IMG/VR virus record: IMGVR_UViG_3300042520_001145
Span: 1-44,173 of that record
Direction: 5' to 3' (one strand)
Source: a virus
DNA: 44,173 bases
A program made the translations under genes and the position numbers. Of the stretch, positions 27,340-29,363 are shown in pieces; positions within the stretch are counted from its first letter, which is position 1, and each line of letters starts with the position of its first letter. The notes beneath the pieces are model-generated. The model was not told where the DNA came from. It did no database searches and worked only from the letters and a program-made list of their open reading frames with translations.

Positions 27340-29163
27340 GTGTCAGAGACTCTTGTGACTTTGGACTTTGAGACTTACTACGACGTAAAGCTCAGTCTCA
27401 CCAAAATGACCACTATGGAATATGTTAAACATGACATGTTCAAGGTCTGGGGTGTTGGCATTAAAGTCAACGATGAACCAGCAGAATGGTTTGGAGCAGA
27501 CGAAGCTGAAGACTGTCTGCGCCAATTTGACTGGAGCAACGTCAAGTTGCTTTGTCACAACACTTTGTTTGACGGCTACATACTAGCCAGGCACTACGGC
27601 ATAACGCCTGCGTACTATCTCGATACCGCAGCAATGGCACGCGGCGCGTTTCCTGGCTTATCTGCATCTCTTAAAGAGACAAGTATTCGCTTGTTCCCAG
27701 ACGACGAATCTATGCGTAAAGGCGAAGACCTTGTTAAAGCCAAGGGACTTTACGACCTTCCACCAGACATTGAAGAGGCTATCTCCAAGTACTGCGTACA
27801 AGACGTAGATCTGACCTACGCTGTTTACAACAAACTTGTGGCTAATTACCCACAGTCTGAGTTGGACCTTATTCATCTCACAACCAAGATGTTCTGTCAG
27901 CCGATTCTTAAGATTGACCGTGAACGACTGACCACGTACCACGATCAGGAATTCACTCGCGCTGAAGATCTGATCAAGAACTCCGGCGTTTCTAAAGATG
28001 TACTCTCAAGCAACGTCAAGTTCGTTGCGCTCCTTGAAAGACTTGGCATCACACCGCCAGTAAAACGCAGCCCAAGCACCGGTAACATGATCCCGGCGTT
28101 TGGTAAAAACGACGCAGGTTGGAAGCAGCTAATGGCTAAGTACCCAGAGCACAAAGCTCTCTGGGATGCTAGAACAGCAGTCAAGTCGCGCATTAGTGAG
28201 ACTCGGTCTAAACGATTTTTAGACGTAGCCCACAGCGACGACACTATTAGTGTCCCGCTTAAGTATTACGCAGCCCACACTGGCCGCTTTGGCGGCACAG
28301 AAAAGATCAATCTTCAGAACTTACCTCGAGGCAGTGAGCTACGTAAATGCTTAGTAGCCCCAGAAGGCATGCTTGTTTACGTAGCAGACTTGTCTAATAT
28401 CGAAGCCCGCATGCTTGCGTGGCTCGCAGGGCAATACGACCTTCTGGACCAGTTCCGCAAAGGTGAGGATATATACAGTAACTTTGCCTCGAAAATTTAC
28501 AACAAACCAGTAAATAAACAAGAACATCCTACTGAACGATTTGTAGGTAAAACCGCAATCCTAGGTCTTGGCTACGGCATGGGACACAAGAAGTTCAAAC
28601 TCACTCTGGAATCCGGAGCCGCAGGACCGGCCATGCAAATTTCAGAATCAGACGCCTTAAACGTTGTACATACATACAGGTCTAGCTACAGCTGCATTCC
28701 GCTCTTATGGGGGCGAATGGAAAACCTCTTGAAGCAATCACTAGACCGAAACAACTACGGCGTTACTTACCGCAACGGAGTCTTAACAATACAAGATCGT
28801 TCTCTTGTTTTGCCTAATGGAATGGCTTTGAGATACGAGAACTTACAAATGACTCCTCAAGGCATGACTTACGAAACGCGCGGGTTTAGCCATGAGTCAA
28901 CTTATGGTGGTCGAATAACTGAAAACGTTATTCAGGCTTTATCAAGAATAGTAATTACTGACAGTTTATTGAGGCTAGACAAGAACTTACGCAACGGATG
29001 CGTTGCCCTTACCGTACATGACGAAGTAGTAATTGTTGCATCAGATGAAAATCCCGATGCTACAATGGCTCAAATCATTGACGATCTTTGCACCCCGCCC
29101 AGCTGGGCTCCGGATCTACCGTTGTCCGCTGAAGGTGGTTATGACAGGATGTATAGTAAGTAA
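27340..29163 (+). CDS. DNA polymerase I family A with proofreading domain
   Basis: 607 residues from a GTG at 27340 with an AAGGA site; an upstream ATG in another gene's frame is unlikely. Exonuclease motifs: DFETYY (D9, E11), CHNTLFDGY and YCVQDVDL. Polymerase motif A is DLSNIEAR (D350), motif B R400-K404-L408-Y412-G, and motif C VHDEV (H560, D561, E562). There is no 5'-3' exonuclease domain. Leu at the position of E. coli Phe762 is notable. It overlaps the csrA-like gene by one base (TAATG). Confidence 0.95.
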   Translation: MSETLVTLDFETYYDVKLSLTKMTTMEYVKHDMFKVWGVGIKVNDEPAEWFGADEAEDCLRQFDWSNVKLLCHNTLFDGYILARHYGITPAYYLDTAAMARGAFPGLSASLKETSIRLFPDDESMRKGEDLVKAKGLYDLPPDIEEAISKYCVQDVDLTYAVYNKLVANYPQSELDLIHLTTKMFCQPILKIDRERLTTYHDQEFTRAEDLIKNSGVSKDVLSSNVKFVALLERLGITPPVKRSPSTGNMIPAFGKNDAGWKQLMAKYPEHKALWDARTAVKSRISETRSKRFLDVAHSDDTISVPLKYYAAHTGRFGGTEKINLQNLPRGSELRKCLVAPEGMLVYVADLSNIEARMLAWLAGQYDLLDQFRKGEDIYSNFASKIYNKPVNKQEHPTERFVGKTAILGLGYGMGHKKFKLTLESGAAGPAMQISESDALNVVHTYRSSYSCIPLLWGRMENLLKQSLDRNNYGVTYRNGVLTIQDRSLVLPNGMALRYENLQMTPQGMTYETRGFSHESTYGGRITENVIQALSRIVITDSLLRLDKNLRNGCVALTVHDEVVIVASDENPDATMAQIIDDLCTPPSWAPDLPLSAEGGYDRMYSK

Positions 29164-29363
29164 TGTCCAGGCTTGTTTTAACAAGGCGTTTAAACGAAAC
29201 CGTTGTTGTTCAACACAACGGTAAAGTCCTTGTTGAAGTAAAAGTCTGTCGCATAGATCGTAATCAAGTTCGCATTGCTTTCGTCGCTGACCCGTCAGTA
29301 ATTATTGACCGGAAAGAAACTTTAGACGAAAGCCCCGGCTCTTCGGAGCAAGACAAGAGCTAG
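29163..29363 (+). CDS. csrA: CsrA/RsmA-like translational regulator
   Basis: 66 residues. LVLTRRLNETVVV, then VLVEVKVCRIDRNQVRIAF and DPSVIIDRKETL align with the whole CsrA fold: the LTRR start, the NQVRI strand and the basic residue of the HRE position (here DRKE). These are the RNA-contacting Arg residues. CsrA dimers bind GGA motifs in hairpin loops and Shine-Dalgarno regions. The tail is Ser/Glu-rich. Placement between polymerase and primase genes suggests it tunes host or phage mRNA during replication. Confidence 0.9.
   Translation: MSRLVLTRRLNETVVVQHNGKVLVEVKVCRIDRNQVRIAFVADPSVIIDRKETLDESPGSSEQDKS

Follow-up and report, generated by a model that had tools for sequence, protein, structure and literature searches.

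Genes for homologues of the RNA-binding protein CsrA have been found in phages before. The 2020 survey by Sobrero and Valverde lists 30 csrA-bearing phages (PMC7366521), several of which belong to a group of Bcep22-like podoviruses. The same survey notes csrA-bearing phages whose Burkholderia hosts have no chromosomal csrA, so that an effect exerted via the host Csr system cannot be assumed (PMC7366521). Campa et al. described phage csrA genes in GenBank and IMG/VR in 2021 and reported that the presence of CsrA in a phage correlates with its presence in the host; host manipulation was proposed, including suppression of CRISPR systems, and RsmA (CsrA) binds cas mRNAs (PMC8450108). In a 2025 CRISPRi-ART screen, coliphage PTXU04 formed smaller plaques when its csrA homologue was knocked down (PMC11879866). 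Among the sources available to us, this is the sole phage csrA with an infection phenotype, and it concerns a different phage and a different host from those of the DNA studied here. Like the gene characterized below, the csrA genes in these surveys of phages and plasmids are phage-borne, and they are proposed to manipulate hosts (PMC7366521, PMC8450108). The occurrence of csrA in phages is thus already in print (PMC7366521, PMC8450108, PMC11879866), and what is new is its fixed place in the replication gene set of a whole clade. In the accessible portions of the two surveys the presence of csrA is reported, while a clade-wide order of polymerase, csrA and primase genes is not described (PMC7366521, PMC8450108). 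A literature search that covered few subscription papers yielded no publication that describes this arrangement or the RNA of the capsid leader treated further below.

The whole stretch of DNA analysed, 44,173 bases in length, is referred to as the window. It encodes portal, terminase, capsid and tail-type proteins and probably stems from a tailed, podovirus-like phage, the type being assigned from relatives. No DNA match to it was found among 50,697 phage records, and its polymerase shares at most 34% identity with those of the best-ranked isolates. The isolates closest by portal protein (37-43%) are the KPP25 group, MW202615, AP1 and phiA008; the complete records of KPP25, AP1, MW202615 and phiA008 are all without a CsrA match. 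Metagenome bins were considered as a source of host information and rejected. The two bins with related contigs, assigned to Neomarinimicrobiota (L174) and Planctomycetaceae (L175), disagree and may hold stray phage contigs, and we therefore do not name a host.

The csrA gene is the only CsrA match in the window and lies between genes for a family A DNA polymerase and a primase-like protein (Table 1). The latter matches PHROGs annotated as 'DNA primase' (E 1.3e-22); its best PHROG (E 1.8e-160) is one of no known function, and there is a remote match to a primase of Nitratiruptor phage NrS-1 (27.5%, covering 26% of the query). The overlap of the polymerase stop and csrA start codons would be expected to couple translation of csrA to that of the polymerase. 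Similarly tight junctions recur in the relatives. Counted from the stop codon of the polymerase gene, csrA begins at -11 to +8 nt in the 122 loci for which the distance was determined. These come from a set of 127 loci with csrA (123 with a placed start, 122 with a measured gap), which includes the window itself and contigs that were fetched twice. A conserved GGA hairpin was looked for in the short gap between csrA and the primase-like gene and none was seen.

Table 1 Features of the csrA region and of the capsid gene region in the window.
Feature	Position	Strand	Evidence or remark
GC-rich strong hairpin with UUCG loop, separating the capsid gene from the next gene	9816-9874	-	terminator-like
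Major capsid gene	9875-11017		
Capsid-gene leader, structured RNA, 265 nt	11018-11282	-	covariation, consensus structure
Family A DNA polymerase gene, directly upstream of csrA	27286-29163	+	PF00476, E 6.3e-26
TAATG, polymerase stop/csrA start, one-base overlap	29161-29165	+	sequence
csrA-family gene, 66 aa	29163-29363	+	ORF MSRLVLTRRLNETVVVQHNGKVLVEVKVCRIDRNQVRIAFVADPSVIIDRKETLDESPGSSEQDKS; contact residues L6 T7 R8 R9, R50
18-nt gap between csrA and primase-like gene, with ribosome-binding-like GGGGAG	29364-29381	+	sequence
Primase-like gene	29382-31925	+	DUF5906; phrog_24712

Assignment of the product to the CsrA family is based on several lines of evidence. The Pfam CsrA model (PF02599) matches with an E-value of 5.1e-10 and 39.6 bits, well above the curated cut-off of 27, which was also exceeded by all 31 of the csrA-selected relatives searched. 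The PHROG 'CsrA-like regulator' matches as well (E 1.4e-6). The LTRR stretch occupies residues 6-9 of the window protein, and R50 corresponds to R44 of E. coli CsrA. L4, T5, R6 and R7 on strand 1 and R44 on strand 5 are positions that we take, from mutational studies, to contact RNA. In E. coli numbering, L2, R6 and R44 are each kept in 77 of 77 distinct relatives, L4 in 76, T5 in 75, and an arginine or lysine at position 7 likewise in 75. Note that position 7 is lysine in 56 and position 43 aspartate in 70 of these 77 proteins, where E. coli CsrA has arginine and histidine. The binding specificity may therefore differ from that of the E. coli protein. In an alignment of 28 sequences including E. 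coli CsrA, some rows of which stop before the end, where R50 falls, 26 of the 27 phage sequences open with M-S-R-L-V-L-T-R-R/K, the remaining one (L090) with M-P.

Structure prediction agrees with this assignment. The AlphaFold model of the 66-residue single chain has a mean pLDDT of 85 with an uncertain tail, and PDB ranks 1 to 15 in a Foldseek search with it are all CsrA, RsmA or RsmE chains, although with a query this short none of them reaches E 0.001; the rmsd is 1.3-2.5 for 14 of these and 3.5 for one. The sequence profile of the clade also matches the CsrA family in the PDB (best E 7.8e-17). By prediction, then, the window protein has the CsrA monomer fold. It shares with bacterial CsrA/RsmA proteins (PF02599; 2bti, 1y00, 1vpz and RNA-bound 2jpp) the domain, the predicted fold and the equivalents of L4-T5-R6-R/K7 and R44. 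It differs from E. coli CsrA by an N-terminal extension of two residues (MSRLVLTR) and a longer loop between strands 2 and 3, and from the bacterial family as a whole by the location of its gene in a replication operon. An earlier note on this DNA, made from the sequence alone, had claimed a CsrA homologue with intact RNA-contact residues that abuts the polymerase gene and precedes a primase gene. Pfam and PHROG scores, the alignment, the residue counts in 77 relatives and the TAATG junction all bear this out.

To what extent the gene is tied to this location was assessed with two sets of relatives. Searching viral contigs with the csrA protein returned 90 relatives, 80 of which were kept. A polymerase match lies just before csrA in all 80, and the primase-like gene follows csrA in all but three (L012, L015 and L043), in which the DNA ends there. 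This set is biased by its query, and the set selected by polymerase is the fair test. An alignment search of viral contigs with the polymerase found 592 loci encoding a relative. Among the best 80 of these, csrA is present behind the polymerase in 31 of 31 loci at 50-98% polymerase identity, and a credible match is present in none of the 49 loci at 38-42%; the latter include L284 with a negligible stretch (8 bits, E 7) and five (L241, L259, L263, L273 and L283) that end 298-541 nt past the polymerase. Two metagenome-bin contigs with polymerases of 54-55% identity likewise carry csrA. In total, all 33 relatives that were selected by polymerase and are at least 50% identical in it (31 of them viral loci from the best 80 of 592) have csrA behind this gene. 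Relative to the stop codon of the polymerase gene, the csrA start could be placed in 30 of the 33, at -11 to +8 nt, while the aligned start lies at about +11 nt without a placed ATG in L233 and L237 and at about +144 in L229. No csrA was shown behind the polymerase in 30 further genome loci at 27-43% identity, two of which are too short to judge, L181 stopping 42 nt and L199 16 nt beyond the match; L206 had no polymerase match. Polymerases of 43-50% identity do not occur among the matches listed, and we therefore place the gain of csrA on the stem of the clade.

The new finding here is that csrA belongs to the fixed core of the replication module throughout a large clade of uncultivated phages. 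The patchy presence expected of an accessory (moron or auxiliary) gene is not seen, as 33 of 33 relatives at 50% identity or more carry it. The earlier note had named loss of the gene from close relatives as evidence against its proposal; all 33 retain it. Values of dN/dS over the first 56 csrA codons lie between 0.08 and 0.18 (13 of 21 pairs computable), as compared with 0.04-0.08 for the polymerase (8 of 15 pairs); these values are rough because most dS exceed 1. They indicate that csrA is under purifying selection. Recurrence behind the polymerase in 33 of 33 relatives together with these dN/dS values shows that the open reading frame is not due to chance. According to the earlier view, phage csrA genes are mainly host genes that were acquired independently several times. 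Here, csrA is a fixed and selected core gene with an intact RNA-binding face, and members of the clade occur in many IMG/VR data sets. The benefit that a phage draws from CsrA thereby becomes testable in a lineage in which the gene is not optional, and the relatives at 38-42% polymerase identity, without csrA behind the polymerase, offer a clean contrast.

A csrA-like gene was also observed in a bacterial element on the chromosome of Vreelandella massiliensis (L176, positions 6437-6655), the polymerase of which is 43% identical. The polymerase, primase-like, nuclease and helicase genes of this element are related to those of the phage module. Its csrA-like gene resides elsewhere in the module, and the primase-like gene directly follows the polymerase gene with no csrA between them.

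Among isolated phages, csrA-like genes are found in other settings. When 50,697 phage records were searched, there were 85 matches at E 0.01 with E. coli CsrA as query and none with the window protein. The protein of clade member L044 gave 28 matches at E up to 1, of which 27 are in Vibrio phages (best E 8e-4, 41% identity). The Bcep22-like podoviruses BcepIL02, Pavtok, PEp14, SopranoGao, Skulduggery and Itty13 have a small CsrA-like gene too. Their relatedness to the window amounts to 26-28% for the portal protein and 25-30% for the capsid protein in the four compared. In contrast to the window, in which the gene lies between the polymerase and primase-like genes, the CsrA-like gene of this group directly precedes the capsid gene in all six records opened; the capsid gene is annotated in four of these and was assigned by position in PEp14 and Itty13. 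The group lacks the LTRR stretch, whereas the clade of the window keeps the canonical residues. Two of the six Bcep22-like proteins pass the Pfam CsrA cut-off, and that of SopranoGao has no Pfam match. The csrA gene of the window does not adjoin the capsid gene as in these phages, the latter being located at 9875-11017. In the six Bcep22-like podoviruses (L290 and L410-L414), a strongly folding leader of 97-112 nt was noticed between the csrA-like and the capsid genes.

What does the phage gain from this protein? The reading that we favour, and for which we see about an even chance, is that it is a working RNA-binding protein of the CsrA family, made together with the replication proteins and acting mainly on host messages. 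The short overlaps and gaps would make translation of csrA follow that of the polymerase, and CsrA would appear as replication begins. It is predicted to dimerise and to bind A(N)GGA in hairpin loops. A host that has CsrA would receive an extra dose, and one without would be supplied with it. Host mRNAs, among them those for metabolism, motility and possibly defence, would be blocked or stabilised in a way that favours phage production. In our judgement, csrA most likely serves to regulate host messages when replication sets in. Targets in the host are preferred over targets in the phage because the leaders of phage genes show no surplus of GGA hairpins, as detailed in the following.

According to the earlier note, structured leaders of the phage could be targets, and it suggested a scan for GGA in loops. 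The scan of the phage leaders did not support this proposal. GGA hairpins were present in 142 of 550 orthologous leaders from 48 gene families, as compared with 130 for GAG and 131 for AGG, which served as controls. In the leaders of 17 csrA-bearing and five csrA-less genomes, GGA occurred in hairpin loops about as often as the two control motifs; for the window, this was the case for 14 of 77 GGA, 13 of 68 GAG and 14 of 81 AGG. A comparison of the 17 genomes with the five, for which we relied on our own, rough gene caller, revealed no difference in GGA hairpin surplus by eye and without a statistical test; the 17 genomes are not all independent, since G021 hardly differs from the window and G022 is mostly 90-96% identical to it. 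Nor was an excess of GGA clusters, as expected of a decoy RNA, seen by eye in the non-coding gaps of csrA-bearing versus csrA-less genomes. Two individual candidates were rejected. The top-scoring family, the leader of the gene at 9423-9815 (8 of 10), corresponds to the strong terminator-like hairpin behind the capsid gene, a similar hairpin being located at the same place in 8 of the 10 genomes shown. The GGA near the csrA start of the window (ACAGGATGT) lies in the tail of the polymerase gene and is absent in many members. Note that all these scans presuppose the classical GGA hairpin and are blind to non-canonical or long-range targets; they weaken the idea of phage targets, against which they are weak evidence.

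The leader of the major capsid gene lies within the stretch 10904-11282, which is more conserved than its neighbours (91% versus 76-81% identity to G025) and adopts a consensus structure of 46 pairs, 37 of which are retained in the trimmed model, with near-invariant ACGATA-type loops. The RNA model matched 67 of the 70 loci given to it. These comprised 67 of the at least 80 loci found with a pattern, two metagenome-bin contigs (L174 and L175) and the window; 13 pattern-found loci, most of which had the pattern close to the end of their contig, were left out of the run. Matches were obtained for 66 of the 67 pattern-found loci and the window, while L328, L174 and L175 remained unmatched. The match rate alone proves little, because a 26-nt pattern of the RNA core had served to pick the loci and several of them trained the model. 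In 51 distinct rows, 96.9% of the cells are paired and 16 of the 37 pairs show two-sided changes. Fitting the alignment to the structure biases these values in favour of the latter, but pairing drops to 32-41% when partners are slid. None of 500 shuffles reached any of five measures. A capsid gene lies downstream in all 65 loci with enough sequence, at a distance of 39-58 nt in 64 of them. Rfam gave no match to the window at gathering scores, and for the capsid leader there was none even with E-values up to 1. The capsid-leader RNA, with its strong covariation, is likely to represent a new RNA family and is perhaps more novel than the csrA gene itself. The remark of the earlier note on structured leaders is thus partly correct, in that good support exists for a structured RNA ahead of the capsid gene; a conserved GGA loop is not part of it, as an apical GGA is present in only 4 of 67 rows, and the capsid leader is therefore not a classical CsrA target.

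The distribution of this RNA bears on a second explanation, namely that CsrA regulates mRNAs of the phage and times the switch from replication to capsid production, perhaps via the structured capsid leader. We consider this possible and put it at about one chance in four. It would fit the presence of csrA in the replication operon throughout the clade and the position of the csrA-like gene next upstream of the capsid gene in all six Bcep22-like podoviruses, which links csrA-like genes with capsid expression. Among 20 further contigs with the RNA core pattern, eight carry csrA, one of these (G064) below the Pfam cut-off. All six model-matching contigs of at least 45 kb have the gene. Of the four model-matching contigs of 33-39 kb, one has csrA, and the three that match without it (G053, G056 and G063), which count against the explanation, may be fragments. 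Five csrA-bearing genomes (G022, G023, G024, G033 and G043) have no RNA match and no match to the capsid gene either. Scanned with the RNA model, the genomes gave 11 matches, which are the 11 training sequences. Nothing was found in nine isolate loci or in the five csrA-less relatives, among which only G001 and G004 have a recognisably related capsid gene. By eye, the capsid leaders of these two contain similar ACGATAC-type hairpins, which count against the explanation, although the model gives them no score. Regulation of phage mRNAs is also disfavoured by the lack of GGA enrichment in the leaders and by the rarity of apical GGA in the capsid leader, and the co-occurrence may reflect common descent alone, csrA and the capsid-leader RNA being simply inherited together. 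The more specific proposal, in which both form one phage circuit and non-GGA recognition times capsid synthesis, strikes us as a long shot. If true, csrA would not serve host takeover and would instead be part of a translational switch within the virus.

Less probable than regulation of phage mRNAs, and in our view unlikely, is a disturbance of the host Csr system, either by mixed dimers with host CsrA or by uptake of Csr-type small RNAs, that would shift the level of free CsrA. The retained CsrA core and, as far as the survey goes, the correlated presence of CsrA in phage and host (PMC8450108) agree with it, while the diverged sequence, the two-residue N-terminal extension and a hairpin loop longer than that of E. 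coli CsrA do not. That CsrA no longer regulates RNA and serves the replication complex instead, e.g. as a small structural partner for either the polymerase or the primase-like protein, would match its unbroken linkage between the two genes and is nonetheless very improbable, as the residues kept are those that presumably contact RNA in CsrA, and as the Vreelandella element and the csrA-less relatives at 38-42% identity indicate that polymerase and primase-like genes need no csrA between them.

Further observations concern other parts of the window. Upstream of the polymerase gene, positions 24081-26902 hold genes for a MoxR-type AAA ATPase, Nmad5 and a DUF2201 VWA-metallopeptidase, a block that is conserved in many relatives; PADLOC gave no match to it. 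About 740 nt at 32685-33423 are missing at the same place in five related genomes (G022, G023, G025, G026 and G030) and look like a recent insertion. The open reading frame inside (32709-33398) is without a Pfam match. On the minus strand of positions 1-3922, few closed open reading frames score as coding with our own rough gene caller. This region is about 67% identical at the DNA level to G026 and G030 over parts of its length and is probably a single long gene running off the contig end.
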